From: Porpolomopsis calyptriformis
Lineage: Eukaryota > Basidiomycota > Agaricomycetes > Agaricales > Hygrophoraceae
Length of the DNA stretch: 64,000 nt
Direction of reading: 5' to 3'
Assembly (NCBI GenBank): GCA_951640195.1
Contig: OX621175.1
Span: forward strand, 62,001 to 126,000
Under the pieces are notes generated by a model that was not told where the DNA came from, did no database searches, and worked only from the letters and a program-made list of their open reading frames with translations. Shown one piece after another: positions 26,578 to 61,953 of the stretch. The position numbers and the translations under genes are program-made. Numbering within the stretch: the stretch's first letter is position 1; every line of letters starts with the position of its first letter.

Positions 26578-28779
26578 GATTTTCATGATGGTCGGTGAAG
26601 ACGCGTTTCCTTCATCTGACTGAATATGCTCTTTTCTTGCGTTGCTTGCAGAATGATTCAGACTTCCTCTCTACTCCCTCTATGACGCAATGTACAGTAA
26701 ATGCCAATGCCAGCGTCTCTTCACCTTCTCTAACAAGTCCGAATTCAAACTCGCAACAAGCAGAAACCCTGGAACGCACCCTACCCTATCCTCTCCCCTT
26801 GTTACCCACTACTGTCGCTACTACTCTTAGATGTAACCCCCATCAAGCAATCCCCATCCTCAAGCAATGGTCTCACCCTGTACGCTTCCGTGAGATGACT
26901 CAACACACTGTTGATGAAATCAATCTGCTGTCCCCTGAGAATGCCATCTGTGCCGTTAACGAACTCAAGGACCCCCACGTGTTTGTTCGAGGCACCAAAG
27001 GATCCCAACTTGTTCTCAAGACCACCATTGTCACTCTTGACAATCGAGCTGAACATCAAGCAACTGCTCTGGTTGATAGTGGATGTGAAGGCTCTTGTAT
27101 CAATGTGAAATATGTCCATAACCATGACCTGCACACAGTCAAGCTTGCACGTCCAATCCCTGTGTTAAATGCAGATGGCCAGCCTAATACTGAAGGACCG
27201 ATCTCTGAAATGGTCACTCTTGAGCTCAGGGTCAGTACCCACTGGGAGCGAATCAACTTTGGTGTCACCAACCTTGGCAAAGGACAGATCTTCCTCGGTC
27301 ATGATTGGCTCAAGATTCACAACCCCTCAGTGGACTGGAAGAAAGGAACCCTCATCTTTGACAGATGCCCTTCTGACTGTAACCCCCATATTGATTCTTG
27401 CAGCTTGAATGCTCTCACTCTTGAGGAGGGAGATCACATCCTCATGGTGGACCCTACCCCTGCAATCAATATCCGCCTCCTCACGACCAAGTCCCAAGAA
27501 CTCGCAATCAAAGCGTATGAGGCTCAGGACAAGACTGCCTCCTGGAGAGAGAGAGTCCCTTCTTACCTTCATGAGTTTGAGGATGTATTCACCAAGGAAG
27601 AGTTTGATGAACTTCCACCTCATCGTCCCTGGGATCATGCCATTGAACTTCTACCTGGAACTGAAGAAGTACTTGACTGCAAGATCTACCCACTTAGTGT
27701 GGATGAACGAGCTCAATTCGATGAATTCCTTGATGAAAACCTCCAGACTGGACGAATCTGACCCTCCATCTCCCCTATTGCCTCCCCCTTCTTCTTCATC
27801 AAGAAAAAAGATGGAAGACTCCGACCTATACAAGACTACCGCAAGCTTAATGAAATCACTGTCAAGAACCGGTATCCTCTCCCTTTAATCACAGAATTGA
27901 TCGACACACTACAGAATGCCCATTATTTCACCAAGCTAGATATACGCTGGGGCTACAACAATGTCCGGATCAGGGAGGGGGATGAATTCAAGGCAGCCTT
28001 TCATACCAATCGCGGTTACTTCAAACCCCTTGTTATGTTCTTTGGTCTCACAAATTCCCCTGCCACCTTTCAAAATATGATGAACGACATCTTCCATGTC
28101 CAAATCCGCCAAGGTCATATCCTAATCTACATTGACGACATCCTCATCTTCGACAGAGATCTCGATACGCATCACAAACATGTCTATGAAGTAATGTCCC
28201 TTCTTTGTAAACACAAGCTCTACCTCAAGCCGGAGAAGTGCGACTTTGACCAGAATAAAGTGGAGTACCTTGGTGTCATCATTTCTGAAGGAAAAGTCAA
28301 GATGGACCTGATCAAGGTCAAGGGAATCTCTGAATGGCCAATCCCCCAATGCAAATGTGATGTTCAGTCCTTCCTCGGGTTCTGTAACTTCTACTGACAT
28401 TTTATCCACCACTTTGCTGGAATTGCCCGACCTCTTAACACCCTTACTGGAAGTGTTCCTTTTGACTGGACTCAAGACTGCCAGAATGCTTTTGACTAAC
28501 TCAAGACTCTCATTACCACTTCTCCAATTCTCTCTATTGCCAATGACCAGGACCCTTTCTGTGTAGAGACCGATGCTTCAGACTATGCCATAGGTGCTAT
28601 TCTCTCCCAACGACAGGACAACATTTGGAAACCAATTGGCTTCATCTCGAAATCTCTCACCCCTACGGAACGAAATTATCAGATCTATGACTGCGAATTA
28701 CTTGCTGTGATGATTGCGCTCCAGGAATTCCGCCAATATTTAATATCGGCTAAGCAAGATTTTGAGATCTGGACAGATC

Positions 28780-29149
28780 TGTTATGATTCGGTAGTCGAA
28801 GGGTTTTACTTCTCGCGTTGGAGGGGCTGATGAGGAAAATGGAATTCAACTAAAGAGTGGGGGAGCTAACTAGGAATCGAACTTAACCTACTGACTAAAG
28901 GTCAGGCTTTATATACTAACTACCTGAGTCGCCATGAGTCAGTCATATGTACGATTACAAAGTGGAATCCGGAATGTGACTAGTGAAGAGTCACAAAAAG
29001 AATAACGGAAACGGAATGTGACTCGTGAAAGAGTCGGAAGGAGGGTACATGTGATCAGTCTCTATATATAAAACGGTAAAGCGGAAGGATAAATGGAATG
29101 GAGACTAATCAAGTATGACTAAAGGAAAAAGAAAAAAGTGTCTGTGACA
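28780..29149 (-). repeat. Gypsy-2 3' LTR
   Basis: 370 bp, on the plus strand TGTTATGATTCG...GTGTCTGTGACA. It differs from the partner LTR at about five sites by eye, all transitions, four in CpG/TpG/CpA context. Confidence 0.95.
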
Positions 29150-29229
29150 TACACCCACACTAAAAGGAATTTCGTCCCGAAATTCGAGGCGGCTTCGAGA
29201 GTGTTGACGGGTGTGGAGGAGGTGAAGGA

Positions 29230-29808
29230 CTAGAATAAGTCCTTGTTGGAAACGGTGGCTGACAAGGAAATAATGTTGGCCGGGGAAGTGTCGTTGTCGT
29301 CGGGGATGGTGATGGGGTTCGACGACGAACCGGGGGGAATGATGAGCGGACCTGGGAAAACTGGAGGAGCCGGGGAATCAAGATGGGGAAGTACCTTTGC
29401 GACTTCCTCATATTTCGTCTCCCAGTGTTTGGCCTGTTCTCGCCAATACTCGCTCGCTCTTCTCTTTCCATCCAAGCTCATTCCTTGATTATACAGTTCT
29501 TCATTCAATCTCGCGATTTCGTCTTTGTAGTATTTGACATCCTTCTGCAACGACTCGATGATTTGCTCGGGTGGGATGGGTGGCGCGACGATTTCTTCTG
29601 GCCATATAGGAGGGTCCCGGTTACGCGCGCGATGGTTATGTTGCCAGAGTTGTCCAGCGAGCTCAGCTTCACCATAGGCGGAGGAGGTGGAAGCGAGCGG
29701 AGGGAGAGCGCGGTGAGGGGGTTGTCCTCCAGTGGACATATGAGGAGTGCGGGGTGGACGACCACCAGTAGACTTACGAGCAGTTTGGTGTGAGCATTCT
29801 GCGGGCAT
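29230..29808 (-). CDS. Gypsy-2 ORF3: protein with a histone H3 tail-like N-terminus
   Basis: A 192-codon frame starting at ATG 29808-29806, after the pol stop (29928) and before the 3' LTR. The frame is open upstream to 29895, so a longer form is possible. Residues 8-20 read QTARKSTGGRPPR. Residues 8-16 (29787-29761) are identical to histone H3 positions 5-13, so Lys12 here corresponds to H3 Lys9. R17, P19 and R20 keep the basic pattern of H3 KAPR. A second STGGQPP copy follows at residues 25-31. The middle is predicted helical/coiled-coil (EQIIESLQKDVKYYKDEIAR; REQAKHWETKYEEVAK), and the end is Pro/Asp-rich. It has no stop although gag and pol of the same copy do. The function is unknown; from the motif I infer a possible H3K9-tail mimic. 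It has no histone fold, so it is not a histone gene. Confidence 0.75.
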   Translation of the reverse strand: MPAECSHQTARKSTGGRPPRTPHMSTGGQPPHRALPPLASTSSAYGEAELAGQLWQHNHRARNRDPPIWPEEIVAPPIPPEQIIESLQKDVKYYKDEIARLNEELYNQGMSLDGKRRASEYWREQAKHWETKYEEVAKVLPHLDSPAPPVFPGPLIIPPGSSSNPITIPDDNDTSPANIISLSATVSNKDLF

Positions 29809-29927
29809 AGTGATGTCGATTTCTAGTGAAAGATGGAGATGAAAGAGATTATAAGGATGAGTCGGAGTTTGGAAAGGTGACAAAAGTGAAAACATAAACG
29901 AGGGGAGTTGATACCGTGAAAGAATGA

Positions 29928-32900
29928 TTAGGTCACCGTTTGAATTGAGTGTTCGTATTCTAGAATTCGTTCTTTCGCATGGAGGAGGTTCTTCGGCTCC
30001 CAGGTTGCTTCTTCAATGGGATAGCCAACCCATTTGACCAAATACGTACGACGTCGAGTAGATCCGTGGTGTTGGAGAATTTGTTCGACCTCGTATTCCT
30101 CTTTCTCCTGAATGACATCTGGAGGTGGACGGAGATTATCATCTACTTCCTCTGGATGGAGATCGGAGTTAATGTTAGCGGATCTCAGGAGTGAAACGTG
30201 AAAGACGTCGTGTATTTTCCATGATAAGGGAAGGGCCAGGCGATAAGAGACTTTTCCAATTTTTTCTAGAACTTTGAATGGTCCAGTACGTCGGACATCA
30301 AGCTTGAGGGTTGGACGACCTGTTTTTAAGTTACGGGTATCAAGATAAACAAATTGACCTATTTGGAGTTGGGTATCTTTCTGTTTACGATCTGCGAAGC
30401 GTTTCATGGTTTCGGCCGTTGTTTCTAGAGCTTTTGTGGCTTCTTCGCGGGCTTCTGTGAGATGATCGTGAAAGGCATCTGCTGCGGGATTGGAAGTAGG
30501 GATCGCAGGGATAGATGGGACGAAGGGATGTTGGCCAGTATCAAGGTAAAAGGGAGTGTGTTTCGTCAAGGAGTGTTGTCGGTTATTATACGCGAATTCA
30601 GCTGGGGATAGCCAGTTGGACCAATCGTCTTGCATAAAGTTTGTATATAAACGAAGGTATTGTTCAAGTTCTTGATTGGTGCGTTCCGTTTGACCATCAG
30701 TTTGGGGATGATAAGCGGTGGATAGACCGGAGATGATTCCCAAATGAGTGTTGAGAGCTTTCGCGAATTTGGAAGCGAATTGAGTCCCTCAATCGGTTAT
30801 GATCTTCTTTGGCCAACCGTGGTGTTTCCATACATTGTCCCTAAAGAGTTTTGCGACTCCTTCTGCAGAAATATTCGATGTCGTCGGGATAAAATGAGTG
30901 CGTTTGATAAAGCGATCGACAACGACTAAGACAGCATCGTAGCCAGATGATTGGGGGAGTTCCACGATTAGATCGGCGGTGATTTCTTCCCAAGGTCGAG
31001 ACGAAGGGGGAATGGGTTCCAGGAGACCTGCAGGCTTCGAAGGATAGAGCTTGACTTGTTGGCAGGTCGGACAGGATGATACGAATACACGGATGTCAGG
31101 GGCAGCACTACTCCAGGTGTAGTTCCGCAACACAAGCTCACGTGTCTTCTCGATTCCGGGATGGCCTCCATGGGGTAGGGAGTGGGTCAATCGAATTATC
31201 TCTGTGCGTAGCGATACGTCCGCTGGCACGACAATACGATCTCCTGCATCTCTCACAATTCCGTCAGTGAAGGAGTAGCCGGAAGAGGAATCGGATAATT
31301 TGATGCGAATGTCCTCTGGGATTTGATTGAAGTCGGGGAAGCGAAGTCTTGACATGAAAGAGGGTTCGGACATGGAAATGATAGCATTGATGAAACGTTC
31401 GGGGGGGAGGAGGGCTTTGCCTTCTGGTTCTTCTTTTTCTGTACGACGGTGGTCGGGTCGGCGGGAGAGTCCATTGGCTTTGTTTTTGACTCCAGGGGAA
31501 TACTCGATCTTGAAGTCGAATCTACCTAAGAATTCCATCCAACGTGCTTGTCGTCTGGAGAGGGATCTGTTCTGCATGAAATACTTGAGCGCTAAATTGT
31601 CCATTTTTATCAATACAGTATCCCTTGCGCCCTCTAAAAGATAGCGCCAATATTTGAGGGAAGTGACGATCGCAAGCATTTCTAGGTCATGGGTAGGATA
31701 GTTGTACTCGGCAGGGAGTAGGGACTTCGAGAAAAAGCCAACGGGGTGCCAACCATTGTCGTGTTTTTGAGATAAGACCGCGCCAATACCGAAATCGGAG
31801 GCATCGGTTTCTAAGAGGTAAGGAAGGTCTGGCCGCGGGGTAAGAAGGACAGGGGCTGTAGTGACGAGATATTTGAGTTGTTCAAAGGCTTTTTGACACA
31901 AAGGAGACTAATCCCAAGGTTGGTCTTTCTGCAAAAGGCCACAGAGGGGACGAACGACTGAGGAGAAACTTTTGATATAACGACGCCAGAAGTTGGTGGT
32001 GCCAAGGAAGGACTGGAGGTCTCGCAGCTTTTGGGGTGTCGGCTAATTGATAATGGCGTCTACCTTTTTTGGGTTGATAGCGAGTTGACCTTTGCTGATG
32101 ATCGTACCAAGGTATGTAACAGAGGTCTTCTCCATTTGGCATTTGACAGGTTTGGCGGATAGTTGATTCTTCTCCATGAGTTTGAGGGTTTCGTCGGTCC
32201 AGTGGCGGATTTCTTCGGGGGTGTCGCCCATAACGAGAATGTCGTCAATATAGATGTGAACACAGCCAGAGTCTAGAACGGGTTTAAAGAGAACGTCTAT
32301 CATTCATTGAAAGGATGCTGGGGAGTTTCGTAGTCCAAAGAACATGACAGTTGGTTCAAAGAGTCCTCGATTGGTGATGAAAGCTGCCTTCCATTCGTCG
32401 CCTTCCTTGAGTCGTATGTTGTTAAATCCCCATCGAATATCGATGACAGTGAAGAGCGAAGCAGTAGCAAGCTTCGGCACTTGGAGAATTTCCGATAGAA
32501 GGGGGAGGGGATAACGATCAGGAATGGTTTTTGAGTTGATGTAGCGATAGTCCTGGATAGGACGTAGACCAGCACTGAGACCTTTGGCATTGATCTCTTC
32601 AGCCTTTTTCGCAAAGAAGAAAGGAGCAGCTTGTGGTGATTTCGATGGATGTATCTGACCTGTTCTGAGATTTTCATCAATAAACTTATTAAGTTCCACC
32701 TGTTCATGGGGGGAAAGGGGATAGAGTTTTCCGACTTGAAATTTGGTGTTCGGGTAGAGGTTGATCGCATGATCAAAGGGACGTCGAGGAGGAAGTTTGT
32801 CGAATTCTGCGGTATGGAAAACACGCCAGAAATTGTGATAACGACTGGGAATGAAGGATTTGATGTCTTCCTCGATGGAAACTGGTCGAGAGTGGTCAAC

Positions 32901-33545
32901 TCCAACCAAACGGATAAAGGAGTCATGTTTCAGACTCGAATCAAAGACGTAGAGTTCTTCCTGTGGGGGCAACACTCCAACTCGCATACTACTGAACAGC
33001 GTGTCACCAGACGCAAAGGTTAAGGTGGCTTTTGTCCAATTGATGGTGGGGTTGTGTCGCAAGAGCCATGGGAAGCCGAGGATGACCTGTTGCTTTTTTC
33101 CTAAGTTGGTGACCTCCAACCGGATTCGTTCTCGAAAAGATAGATCTGGTGCCTCGATAAACAGGTCTGTGTCGTGCGTGATGGGACCTCCTCGGTTCTC
33201 GGAACCATCAGCGTTTCGTACCGGTATAACCTCATCCAACGGATAGGTCGATATCTCCATTTGACAAACGAATGCTTCGTCAATAAAATTCCCTGAGGTG
33301 CCAGAGTCAATGAGTGCTATGATAGCCACTCGTCGAAGATTGTCGGCACTCGTGATCCAAAGATAGAATTCGAGAGCGCCTTTGCCCTGTTCAAGTGTGC
33401 CAAGAAAATGAAAGTTTTTCATAGATGGTGGTACACATATGTGGGACACAGCCAAAGTGCTTGGGCTTTTAGCACTTGGCCAGACTAAAAATCCTTTTGC
33501 TCTTTTAACGCTCGAGCTAGCGCAGCCCGTCTCTCCTTGTCCCAA
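29928..33545 (-). pseudogene. Gypsy-2 Pol (protease-RT-RNase H-integrase-chromodomain), broken
   Basis: Protease ALIDSGTSGNF is near 33310. Reverse transcriptase shows IDIRWGFNNIRLKEGDEW and YIDDIL near 32250. RNase H has LLETDASDFGIGAVLSQ. The integrase zinc finger (HSLPHGGHPGIEKTREL; SSCPTCQQ) and core (TADLIVELP; AYHPQTDGQTERTNQELEQY) follow. The C-terminal chromodomain reads EEYEVEQILQHHG and TYLVKWVGYPIEEATWEP, with all three cage aromatics (Y, W, Y). In-frame stops are at 32304, 32043, 31908 and 30789. Gypsy-3 shows Trp at the second and third and Arg at the fourth, so they fit TGG to TAG and CGA to TGA. The copy is inactive as read. Confidence 0.9.
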
Positions 33546-34906
33546 TTTGCGATTCCCATATCCTTCAAGTCGTCCTTAGCCGTCCTTTTCTCCTTTTCGT
33601 CATCCTCTGATACTTCCTCTATCCGCGCTTCCAATTCTTCCGTATCAACCCGATTGATCATTCGGACATTTCATCCTTTGCTTCGACCGCGATTTCCTCC
33701 TTTTCCTCAAGTAGAAGTTGAGGATTCTTGACGTGCCGGAACGTCTTCAGCGCGTGGGCTTCGACATTCATTGGCGTAATGTCCCTTTTTGCCACAGTTG
33801 TAGCAAGTGATGGAGGAGTTGTCTCATTTCGCTGTCTTGAGAGAGGCTTCTCTCGATTCTTGTTTGATCGGGGATGAAGTGGTGGTGGTGGTGAAGCGGG
33901 AAGGGTTTCCTCGGGGATTCGATTTGGCTTCAGACTTCTTTCCTTTTTGGTCTCGACTTGACCACAACGCTTGTTCAGCTCATTGCTCCTGGTACTGTTC
34001 TTCGAATTGGGCCGCTTTCGTCATCCAATCCAGCAAGGTCGACGGCATATTATCCATCGAATAGATTCGCATTCGGATCGGCTGGGGAAGTCCGGCTTTG
34101 TAAAACCGAAGTAAGGCGGCCTTGTTGTACTCAGTTCTTGCTGCGTGTTGCATGAATCGAAGGTTGTAGTCTTCAATCGTTCCTGTCATCTTCACTTTCT
34201 CTAGCTCGATCCGCGCCTTCGCTGCTGGGTTAATCCTTCCAAAAGCTTCCCTGAAATCGTCCAAAAACGTTGCGTAGTCCCACACGAAATTCCTCGTTCT
34301 ATCAGCTCCTTCTGTGAACAGTCGTCCCCAAGCCCGTGGATTGCCGTCACCGAGATAAGAGAGCATATAGATGATTTTCTGTTTGTCATTGTAGTCTTTG
34401 ACCACAAAATTGAGTTGACATTGATGAATGAAATCTTCAAGCTTCTCTGAAGTTCCATTGTATTCAGTTGGATTGGTGATTTTGATTTTGGTGGGGGCTG
34501 GAAGTGTAGGGGGAGCAGTTGTCTGGGTAGGTAGTTGAGTGGGAAAGGTCGATGGGAGAGGAAGTTGGACGGATTGGGTTCTTCTTGCAGGGTAAACGAA
34601 AGGATTTGAGGGGGAAAGTCCAGGTCCCCGAAGTACAGATCGTCGTCGTGGGGGAGGGGTGGCTGGTTCTGAGTCTTCTCGTCGACTTTCTTTGAGAGCT
34701 TTTAATTCCTTTCGGAGTTCGTCATTGAGGTCGACTTCGCTGTAGTACTAACCACGGAACTGGTCGATTTGTGCTCTTAGGTCTCTGAGCTCTTGTTCCA
34801 TGTTAAATGGGACGACGACTTCTTCTTCTTCTTGACTGGTAGGGGGGATGTTGCTGGGTCCGGGTGCGGGAACGCTCTGATTGGCTTCATATTCTTGTTG
34901 AGACAT
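33485..34906 (-). pseudogene. Gypsy-2 Gag, broken by stops
   Basis: Starts at ATG 34906-34904 (MSQQEYEANQSVPAPGPSN). A Pro-rich region leads to a capsid part (PTEYNGTSEKLEDFIHQCQL; AWGRLFTEGADRTRNFVWDY), then a zinc knuckle CYNCGKKGHYANEC near 33800 and an acidic end with NWDKERRAALARALKEQKDF. Stops at 34748 (TAG where Trp is likely), 33980 and 33824 break it. The end of gag matches that of Gypsy-3 (NWEPKRKEELKRALEKQGF). Confidence 0.8.
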
Positions 34907-35069
34907 TGATGTTAGTGATGATGACGAGGGGGAAAGGGGGATGATGGATTGTGCAGGGGTTTGGAATACTATAGGTTGAAAGGGAGTATCTGAATCTGCG
35001 GATGAGAAGATTGACCTTGTTAAGTCTTCGGCAGGATCCAGAGTGGAAGTAGTTTGATACGTAAGAAGG

Positions 35070-35217
35070 AAGTTCGATTCTTGTTATGATTCGGTAGTCG
35101 AAGGGTTTTACTTCTCGCGTTGGAGGGGCTGATGAGGAAAATGGAATTCGACTAAAGAGTGGGGGAGCTAACTAGGAATCGAACTTAACCTACTGACTAA
35201 AGGTCAGGCTTTATATA
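35070..35217 (-). promoter_or_regulatory. Gypsy-2 promoter, predicted start and self-complementary primer-binding site
   Basis: On the minus strand a TATATAAA box (35217-35210) lies 31 nt before AAGTTCGATTC (35186-35176), the predicted RNA 5' end. Its exact 11-nt reverse complement GAATCGAACTT lies at 35080-35070, next to the LTR edge. This is the arrangement expected for self-primed Tf1/sushi-like elements. Confidence 0.65.
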
Positions 35218-35451
35218 CTAACTACCTGAGTCGCTATGAGTCAGTCGTATGTATGATTACAAAGTGGAATCCGGAATGTGACTAGTGAAGAGTCACAAAA
35301 AGAATAACGGAAACGGAATGTGACTCGTGAAAGAGTCGGAAGGAGGGTACATGTGATCAGTCTCTATATATAAAACGGTAAAGCGGAAGGATAAATGGAA
35401 TGGAGACTAATCAAGTATGACTAAAGGAAAAAGAAAAAAGTGTCCGTGACA
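35082..35451 (-). repeat. Gypsy-2 5' LTR
   Basis: 370 bp partner of 28780-29149. It ends on the plus strand at GTGTCCGTGACA, directly followed by the AGATC target duplication. Confidence 0.95.
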
Positions 35452-37652
35452 AGATCATGCTAATCTCCAATACTTCAAAAAGCCTCAAAAGCTTAACAAA
35501 CGACAGGCCCGTTGGCTCACAGAGCTACAAGATTATCACTTCACGCTTCACCACATCCCGGGGAAATCAAACTCCAAGGCTGATATCCTGTCGAGACGAC
35601 CAGGATTTGAAAGGGGGATGGATGACAATAATGACGCCATTTTACTCACAGATAATCTCTTCTCACCTTTCGACACTCTCCCTTGCAAACCCCTAGGCCC
35701 TGTCCCAGAAGAAAACAAACTCAATCTACGGCAAGTCCAACATGATATTAAGCCTGTCGACTTCCATTCCCGAATTGTCCGAGCTCGCAACAACCTGGAC
35801 AAGACTATCATGCTTGTTTCAGAAAGGGATCAAAACTGGGAAACCTCTAATGATGGTGTCCGTACCTTCAAGAATCGGATTTATATCCCCATTGCCAAAA
35901 CCCTCTGTGGCGACATCATCTCTCAGTATCATGACACCCCACTCTCTGGACACTATGGCCGGTACAAGACTGCTGAAGGTGTCCTTCAAGACTACTGGTG
36001 GCCCACGCTTCAACGAGATGTTGCAACCTATGTCGCTGGATGCGAAACCTGTCAAAGGACCAAAGCCTCTCGTCTCCCTACCAAGACCCCACTCCACCCC
36101 TTTGAACCACCAATGCAACCTTGGGAAATGATTACGGTCGACCTCATAGGCCCCATACCAGAGTGTCAAGGCTATAACACTGTCCTTACCATCGTTGACT
36201 GGTTCACAAAGGCTGTCAAGTTCGAACCAACCCATATTGAACTCAATTCTGAAGGCTTTGCCAAAATCATTTGAGACCGTGTTATCCGAGACCATCGACT
36301 CCCCAAATGAATCATCCATGATCGTAACCCTAGATTTGTATCAAAGTATATGACCGACCTCTTTCGCCTTCTTGGAACCTCCCAAAACATCTCCACTGCC
36401 TACCATCCCCAAACTGACGGTTAGACTGAACGGATGAATCAGATGCTTGAACAGTATCTCCGTATCTTTATCAACCACCGTCAGGACAACTGGAAGGAAT
36501 GGCTTGCGCTAGCTGAATTTTTATACAACAACTCTATTCATGCTGCAACTCACCAAACACCATTCTTCCTCAACTATGGTTGGCACCCCTGGAAAGGAGA
36601 TAGCTCCAAGAAGGAAGTCAGGAATGAATCTGCTCAAGAGTTTGCCACTCGTATGAAGAACATCCACTGTGAAGCTGAATCTGCCCTTCGCCAAGCGAAT
36701 GAACGGATGAAAGAAACCCATGATAGGCATGCCCGTCAAGCTGTTGAATACCAACCTGGAGACTGAGTTTACCTTGCTTCAACCAATCTTCGCACTAATC
36801 GTCCAATGAAGAAGCTTGACGACAAATGTTTTGGACCCTTCAAGATTGTTGAGAGGGTTGGTCACTCCTCTTACCACCTTGAACTCCCTTGGCCTGGCCT
36901 TCACCCTGTGTTCAATGAATCATATCTTTCTCCATATCGTCCCCCCAAATTCCCGAACCAAAGAAAACCTCCCCCTCCGCTCCCTTTAGATATCGAAGGA
37001 GAACCTGAGTATATTGTTGAAGAAATTCATGACTCCCGTTGACGAAGAGGACGTCTCCAATACCTAGTCCATTGGAAGGGATACACCTGTGAAGAGGACA
37101 CCTGGGAGCCTGAACGAAATGTCAAAAACACCCTAGATCTAGTCAGCAAATTCCACATTGAGAATCCAAATTGCCCAGCCCCTACCAATAATATTAGAGT
37201 GATCCAGACTGATGACTCCCCTGGAGTTGATCCAAGGCTCTATAACCCAGTCACTCATTCACCTGGCGAAGATTATTATCCACCTCAATCTAATGACAAT
37301 CTCAATGCTATTGTTCCATTGTCTCCTGACATTGTTGACCGCCTTCTTGATCTCAAGCAAGATGCCTCCGCCCTTCTCCCTATCCTCCCCCCTCAAGTTC
37401 GTAGAGTTTGGGTTCATGAGTCAACCCCAGTCAATGCTGTCATGGCTGTACTTCGACTTGATGCTCAAGGCCAAACTCTCCGTGCCTACCAAATTGTGAA
37501 CCCTCTTCTTGACATTGAGATCCGTAAATGATATGAGTATCAGTCCCCAATTCAACCCTGTTATGCACCCCGTTGGCTCCTCCGTGATTACTCAAGACAT
37601 CTCCAATGTCTATTCTGAACATCGCGTGGGCGCGATTCTAATGAGAGGGTGG

Positions 37653-61260: not shown

Positions 61261-61953
61261 ATGCCCCGTGAAGTTCGTTACGCCTGCAAGTCGACTGGGA
61301 GGCGTCCACCCCGAGGGAACCCCACCGCTTCTACCTCCAACCTCCCCCCCGATTCTTCTTCCTCCTCTTCCTCATCCGACAGTGTCTTGGTTACCTGATG
61401 GTTCAAGAAGCCAAAGCGACGTACCGATACTATCGACAAGCCGGGACGAAACCGTAACTATCGAGGGCTCCCCTTTGCCAAGGTCGAGCACCTATCTGGG
61501 TGTCCTGAAACCTACGTCCCATTTATTTCTGGAGCACGTCGATGTGAACTTAACTACGACCGTCACTGGTACACATTCGACAAGGACAGCGACTTTGACG
61601 ACAAGAAGAATCAACTTGAAGATTGGCTGGAGGCATACCAAGTTGGGCGCCAACTTTTGATGGTTATACCGGACCAGGACGAATCCGACGTCACCACCCC
61701 CACTATCCCCGAAGACCCCATCTCGCACCGCATCCATCGCGTCGCCGACCGACTCTATGCTGCCCGAAACGGGTACTGCTCGATGATGGATGCCAAGTAC
61801 GAAAGGATCCTTGACCTGGAGGAGAATGCTGTGATGTGTAGGGAGCTGGCTGAAACTTGGTTGCAATGTGCCCGGGAGTTGGATGGCCGTTACCACTGGT
61901 TTGACCCAGATGGACACCTGCTTCAACCCCCAGTTTATGATGGCGCGACCTAG
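61261..61953 (+). pseudogene. Gypsy-3 ORF3: relative of Gypsy-2 ORF3 with decayed H3-tail motif
   Basis: ATG 61261 opens MPREVRYACKSTGRRPPRGN (motif 61279-61314), aligned with MPAECSHQTARKSTGGRPPR of Gypsy-2. Two single transitions separate it from ARKSTGGRPPR: Cys codon TGC where CGC would give Arg, and AGG where GGG would give Gly. A Ser-rich stretch precedes TGA at 61396-61398. The frame then stays open to 61953 with WLEAYQVGRQLLMVIPDQDE and a helical RIHRVADRLYAARNGYCSMM region, ending DGHLLQPPVYDGAT. About 230 codons. The function is unknown. Its shared place, start and motif with Gypsy-2 suggest a conserved accessory gene of this lineage. Confidence 0.7.

Follow-up and report, generated by a model that had tools for sequence, protein, structure and literature searches.

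A chromodomain Gypsy element encodes an accessory protein that carries a copy of the histone H3 tail near its start and may act against silencing

Why would a retrotransposon protein begin with a piece of histone H3? The case comes from Porpolomopsis calyptriformis, in a stretch of 64,000 nucleotides (the window) that contains a Gypsy element, Gypsy-2. Its third open reading frame (ORF3) carries QTARKSTGG near its start. H3K9 methylation is a central route of transposon silencing. If the likeness is functional, a mobile-element protein with an H3K9 site would be a direct attack on, or a use of, the silencing system, and the ORF3 tail would be a simple peptide handle on transposon survival under silencing. 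The answer depends on whether ORF3 is a real protein, whether the tail is kept by selection, and which partner it might address.

Gypsy-2 and its third reading frame

Gypsy-2 is a chromovirus (a chromodomain Ty3/Gypsy element), with LTRs and a target duplication, the expected domain order and an integrase chromodomain. RVP_2, RVT_1, RT_RNaseH, Integrase_H2C2, SH3_Tf2-1 and Chromo are above their Pfam cut-offs and stand in Gypsy order; rve falls below its own cut-off. The target duplication is the 5 bp AGATC (28775-28779 and 35452-35456), and pieces of the host Gypsy element flank Gypsy-2 on both sides. In the window copy, pol is broken up into several reading frames, and the copy is therefore probably dead. 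Coordinates of the features are collected in Table 1.

Table 1. Features of the window, the host genome and the protein collections (positions refer to the window unless a contig or protein handle is given)
Feature	Position or handle	Strand	Remark
Gypsy-2 element, LTR to LTR	28780..35451	(-)	nested within another Gypsy element
5' LTR, 370 bp	35082..35451	(-)	5/370 differences from the 3' LTR
3' LTR, 370 bp	28780..29149	(-)	partner of the 5' LTR
Integrase C-terminal part with chromodomain	29928..30635	(-)	Pfam Chromo and HP1 1kna alignment
ORF3, 192 aa, begins MPAECSHQTARKSTGGRPPRTPHMSTGGQPPH	29808-29230	(-)	about 90 near-full-length copies; low dN/dS in its own frame only, not in three other frames
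QTARKSTGG, ORF3 residues 8-16 = H3 residues 5-13	29761..29787	(-)	exact identity
HMSTGGQPPH, ORF3 residues 23-32, imperfect second unit	29713..29742	(-)	Met where Lys9 would be
Coiled-coil-like segment, residues 80-142, two predicted helices	29383..29571	(-)	block pLDDT 57-86 over residues 81-140
Second family, N-terminal piece of third ORF, MPREVRYACKSTGRRPPR...	61261..61395	(+)	Cys at the Arg place, stop after 45 residues
Second family, post-stop frame of third ORF, 184 aa	61399..61950	(+)	searched as a separate piece
Host H3 genes, three found	C5:682286-682860; C5:691270-691854; C2:3412900-3413403		
Paired third ORFs, five places	L079 = C1:519300-524600; L080 = C4:416600-421500; C5:731038-733178; C9:1163317-1165457; C11:520579-522719		
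Multi-tail proteins, Armillaria (three species)	P0005, P0007, P0008		
Multi-tail protein, Peniophora sp. CONT	P0013		
Multi-tail protein, Daedalea quercina	P0015		
Multi-tail proteins, sources jgi/lgn only, taken as metagenomes (five)	P0002, P0003, P0004, P0006, P0009		
Multi-tail protein, Oikopleura dioica (tunicate), 478 aa	P0017		three H3-like tails at the N-terminus, no Pfam domain

An earlier note on this DNA had claimed a nine-residue identity between ORF3 and H3, and it is found exactly where placed, at 29787-29761. Of the three H3 genes found in the host, two read MARTKQTARKSTGG and the third has QTARKSTGG. All three appear, from their sequence, to have an intron that opens directly after the STGG codons, at the point where the ORF3 identity stops. 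The note had also thought chance unlikely, and a shuffling test bears this out: the longest stretch that ORF3 shares with H3 1-40 is nine residues, and the longest in 20,000 shuffles of ORF3 was two to seven. As a DNA pattern, exact A-R-K-S-T-G-G occurs at 70 places in the 33.5-Mb genome, which are 67 ORF3 copies and the three H3 genes; the reversed control pattern occurs at two. H3 residues 5-10, which we take to be the segment contacted by HP1, are all present in the ORF3 tail, and the K14 place is Arg in the window copy.

ORF3 follows the integrase stop (29928) after a gap of 119 bases. Among the 80 aligned rows of ORF3 copies, a Met that lies upstream in frame and is not followed by a stop (within 29 codons) occurs in only eight, and 19 have a stop there, so MPAE is the likely start of ORF3. 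A longer in-frame form, possible in the window from an ATG at 29895, was rejected because most rows do not keep the extension. A spliced messenger is likewise unsupported, with YAG in the 40 bases upstream in just 31/80 rows; the window copy has a pyrimidine tract and TAG immediately before the ORF3 ATG. On the same strand (-), CTTATAAT lies at 29855-29848, 40-47 bases upstream of the ATG, and a stretch rich in pyrimidines comes after it. The 80 bases upstream of ORF3 contain TTATAAT in 70/80 rows. These sequences are possibly a promoter or leader signal.

Homology searches with ORF3 itself gave little. A phmmer search of PDB did not match H3 peptides significantly (E of 0.44 or more, with one unrelated match ranked above them at 0.14), which is no surprise for a match of this length. 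The Pfam scan of ORF3 gave nothing above cut-off, with SlyX alone appearing (E 0.042, below its cut-off), and none of the 165 candidates from a first protein search with ORF3 as the only query reached E <= 0.001. In IMG/VR and GTDB genomes, where little fungal DNA is expected, 83 and 94 pattern matches yielded no confirmed relative. The fold prediction has a mean pLDDT of 55.8 and a pTM of 0.22. Confidence is low in the first 40 residues and at the C-terminus, and helices are predicted at residues 44-62, 80-117 and 120-142. From this model, ORF3 is probably a flexible tail on a rod, and its H3-identical N-terminal region is probably disordered.

Conservation of the tail and of ORF3 as a whole

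Of the 128 rows that matched ORF3 in the genome search, about 90 are near-full-length copies and 18, by our count, match the coil distantly; the others are fragments. The codon alignment has 80 rows (the window copy, L001, and L002-L080); nine more near-full copies lie outside it. Q8, T9, K12, S13 and T14 are invariant in all 80 rows, and A10 is kept in 77, R11 in 67, G15 in 79 and G16 in 77. The 13 replacements of R11 are to His (eight) or Cys (five), the pattern that CpG decay would give; DNA methylase matches are present in the host genome and are in line with CpG-type decay in the copies. The silent sites of T9, K12, S13 and T14 differ among rows (K12 is AAG in 61 and AAA in 19). Silent sites that vary in codons whose residues hardly do argue for selection at the protein level.

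For ORF3, dN/dS calculated from 39 nearest pairs that do not overlap is 0.298, or 0.248 without CpG changes, and falls to 0.16 once CpG-type contexts are removed. The control frames give 0.82 and 1.27 (shifted) and 0.75 (reverse complement), or 1.13, 1.09 and 0.99 without CpG changes. Values for parts, with those lacking CpG changes in brackets, are 0.18 (0.10) for motif 8-16, 0.145 (0.13) for coil region 71-140, 0.40 (0.42) for the C-terminus and 0.35 (0.25) for the integrase chromodomain part. Between the window copy and six diverged copies, dN/dS is 0.10-0.21 at dS 0.49-0.97, and the motif is free of replacements in five of the six.

We ranked 184 nine-codon segments along ORF3. Without CpG changes, those starting at residues 23 and 7 have the two lowest dN values and motif 8-16 is ninth; with every change counted the motif is 19th. 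Under a strict rule that takes CpG-type contexts out of both sites and changes, the segment at 7 is second, the motif 14th and the segment at 23 26th. By dN/dS the motif ranks 55th, or 27th without CpG changes. Stretches near residues 100-113 are tighter than the motif. The earlier note had proposed asking whether the motif is kept while the rest of ORF3 varies. The first part stands, since K12 is kept in 80/80 rows over a varying silent site, but the motif is no more constrained than some other parts of ORF3. The motif is strongly constrained and parts of the coil at least as much, so that purifying selection acts on the whole protein. Judged by sequence, copies and selection, ORF3 is a genuine accessory protein encoded by a chromodomain Gypsy element.

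A second chromodomain Gypsy family is present in the window as an element at about 56.1-62 kb (+), with its own third ORF from 61261. In less decayed copies this ORF reads ARKSTGRRPPR. A genome search with its two pieces gave 127 and 115 matching rows, counting fragments. We read 21 N-termini, from the window and from 20 of the 115 rows, chosen because their frame stays open over a long stretch: Lys10 is K in all 21, Ala8 is A in 18 and T in three, Arg9 is R in 13 and C in eight, and Ser11 is S in 18 and L in three. The H3 motif is thus kept by selection both across copies and in the second family, the kind of sequence evidence for which the earlier note had asked. In the integrase part of pol the two families share 63% identity over 301 columns. 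Their ORF3 bodies reach 21% identity when three rows are aligned globally, and gave no local match; the two ORF3s match each other locally at a significant level in the N-terminus alone (E 0.003). The note had named relatives with no ARKS in their third ORF as evidence against itself, and one more distant family alone is of this kind (L079:3230-3748), where the coil is 30% identical in the three-row alignment and the H3 tail is absent. A motif ORF was also not found, among forward frames of at least 50 aa at 36.25-38.7 kb, for a chromodomain-bearing Gypsy element at about 25.6-37.5 kb.

At L079, the locus read in detail, and at L080, a Gypsy-2-type 3' piece (integrase end and ORF3, QTARKSTGG intact) adjoins another Gypsy family, represented by its integrase end and third ORF. 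At these two and at three other loci, the two third ORFs have matches about 1.4 kb apart, as though ORF3 had travelled with, or been captured by, another element.

The tail could also be a relic. An H3 exon fragment may have been captured once and the region then constrained otherwise, as an RNA signal or start region, with descent but no chromatin function. The coincidence between the apparent host H3 intron and the end of the ORF3 identity is suggestive, and the motif DNA differs from one host H3 gene at just four of 27 positions, all of them silent C/T changes. Against this reading are the hardly varying residues over variable silent sites, which point to selection on the protein, and the occurrence of the same tail on different linkers in other proteins (below). 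We consider it very unlikely.

A methionine unit and proteins with several tails

Going beyond the earlier note, which was made from sequence alone, are the roughly 90 genomic copies, the second family with its related motif, and an imperfect second unit in ORF3. This unit repeats the first: RKSTGGRPPR is followed by HMSTGGQPPH in the window and by RMSTGGQPPR in other copies. Met is kept in 79 of the 80 rows and the next Ser in all 80, and residue 23 is Arg in 37 and His in 43. L079 and L080 read MSTERQPL. In the second family, the residue lined up with this unit by eye is Ala. According to PMC5030085, SAM-dependent binding by H3K9M traps Clr4, and the chromodomains of Clr4, Swi6, Chp2 and Chp1 did not bind it. 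Since those chromodomains do not bind H3K9M, the Lys unit and the Met unit would address different partners. A role of the second unit as an H3K9M-like methyltransferase trap is speculative, a lead rather than a result. A working unit would mean that a mechanism familiar from cancer and from engineered histones has a natural, inherited counterpart.

Of 3141 candidates scored with a profile built from nine ORF3s, four proteins reached E <= 1 (three of them above 0.001), and all four have three to four H3 tails. A query joined from such tails matched 1169 proteins at E <= 10 among 7947 scored, candidates with the fewest shared words being left unscored, and the best 120 were mostly histones. Among the matches listed, at least 11 non-histone proteins hold 38 tails matching ARK[STG][TS]G, three to four each, or three in Oikopleura. 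P0016 (Cooperia oncophora) resembles a mis-annotated H3 gene array and was excluded from the count. The search pattern demanded K at the K9 place, so K is found there in all 38 tails and a Met would have been invisible. QT stands at the place of H3 residues 5-6 in 32 tails, and 26 have K at the K4 place. At the K14 place five tails have K, 20 have R, eight have H and five have another residue. In an alignment of P0004, P0006, P0009 and P0013, all invariant columns except the first Met lie inside the tails. The three Armillaria proteins have near-identical tails, and their linkers are rather similar too. A Pfam scan of ten multi-tail proteins found no domains. These unannotated proteins are apparently an undescribed class, and would serve as multivalent tools for HP1 and Clr4/SUV39 enzymes.

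Possible roles and known parallels

We favor, tentatively and at slightly less than an even chance, counter-silencing by ORF3 as a decoy H3K9 site as the leading explanation. The QTARKS site would be offered to the host H3K9 methyltransferase, to HP1-type readers of methylated H3K9, or to both. ORF3 multimers would then compete with nucleosomal H3, and the Met unit of Gypsy-2 might, speculatively, add an H3K9M-like grip on the methyltransferase. H3 residues 5-10 are complete in ORF3 though the K14 place is Arg, and K14 is likewise Lys in just 5/38 tails of the other proteins, which we count in favor. Counted against it are that the motif is not the tightest part of ORF3, that R11 is lost in 13/80 rows, that the Arg before Met is His in 43/80, with Ala at the eye-aligned place in the second family, and that just 31/80 rows have the upstream YAG that might help to explain how ORF3 is translated downstream of pol. 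A Pre-SET match at one place in the host genome is consistent with a host H3K9 methyltransferase. A chromoshadow (HP1) search of the host genome gave no match, and its controls were equally silent.

The decoy may be part of a larger picture, in which fungal retrotransposons make a counter-silencing protein with a Lys9 bait and a natural Lys9-to-Met trap for the H3K9 methyltransferase, and basidiomycetes have a wider, undescribed class of proteins with three to four H3K9 tails on divergent linkers, either derived from such elements or host factors of the same arms race. That whole picture we regard as unlikely.

The partner could instead be the element's own integrase. The chromodomain that the earlier note had placed beside ORF3, with an intact cage, is there: the Chromo domain has a Pfam E of 5.7e-12, and the match to HP1 1kna (E 6.3e-8) retains a tyrosine, a tryptophan and a tyrosine, which we take to form the aromatic cage. 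ORF3 methylated at Lys12 would bind this chromodomain and regulate or escort the integration complex, for example by blocking it until chromatin is reached. The cage residues are kept across the 80 rows (Y in 79, W in 77 with three stops, Y in 79), the chromodomain ORF adjoins ORF3, and both tail-bearing families have a chromodomain. Targeting alone, however, already predicts cage conservation; the Gypsy element at about 25.6-37.5 kb has a chromodomain and no motif ORF in the frames checked, and the L079:3230-3748 family has a related coil without the tail. We think an integrase partner rather unlikely.

Methylated ORF3 multimers might also bind host HP1 and so keep element particles or DNA in heterochromatin, a safe place for insertion, which we judge quite unlikely. 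The tail has the whole HP1-contact segment, and the window copy is nested in another Gypsy element; a single nested insertion is no proof of targeting, and the chromodomain could suffice without ORF3. Tether, decoy and auto-regulator had all been proposed in the earlier note. The sequence supports the H3 identity, the selection on it and its occurrence in a second family; among the three roles we lean towards the decoy.

Gypsy-2 resembles fungal chromoviruses, including Tcn1-like elements, in its LTRs, protease, RT, RNase H and integrase with a C-terminal chromodomain, and differs in adding a third ORF with an H3 tail. A term search of the main text of PMC2864245 gave no match for "ORF3", "third ORF", "additional ORF" or "histone H3". 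Among the matches listed from the open-access PMC literature, with subscription journals mostly outside it, we found no transposon-encoded H3-tail mimic and no multi-H3-tail fungal protein.

Partial parallels come from other systems. EZHIP inhibits PRC2 through H3 K27M-like mimicry (PMC6513997). Gypsy-2 shares with H3K9M and EZHIP-type trapping peptides the idea of a peptide mimic that would act on a silencing enzyme, and its second unit has an H3-like context with Met where the target lysine would stand; it differs in that His often replaces the Arg before Met and in that the first unit retains Lys. VANC proteins of Arabidopsis VANDAL transposons are described in PMC10398659 as sequence-specific anti-silencing factors. 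Like them, ORF3 would be a transposon accessory protein directed against silencing, as we propose; VANC is sequence-specific, whereas ORF3 has no Pfam family above cut-off and mimics a histone. The host proteins ATF7IP, LIG1 and WIZ have H3K9-like sites methylated by G9a/GLP, and the ATF7IP site is tri-methylated and recruits the chromodomain protein MPP8 (PMC6172828). ATF7IP shows in this way that methylation of an H3K9-like site, and its recognition by a chromodomain, can occur in a non-histone protein. ORF3 likewise has a short H3K9-like site outside histones; the consensus searched for in host proteins has three residues (ARK), whereas ORF3 has nine H3 residues, near its N-terminus, in a retrotransposon.
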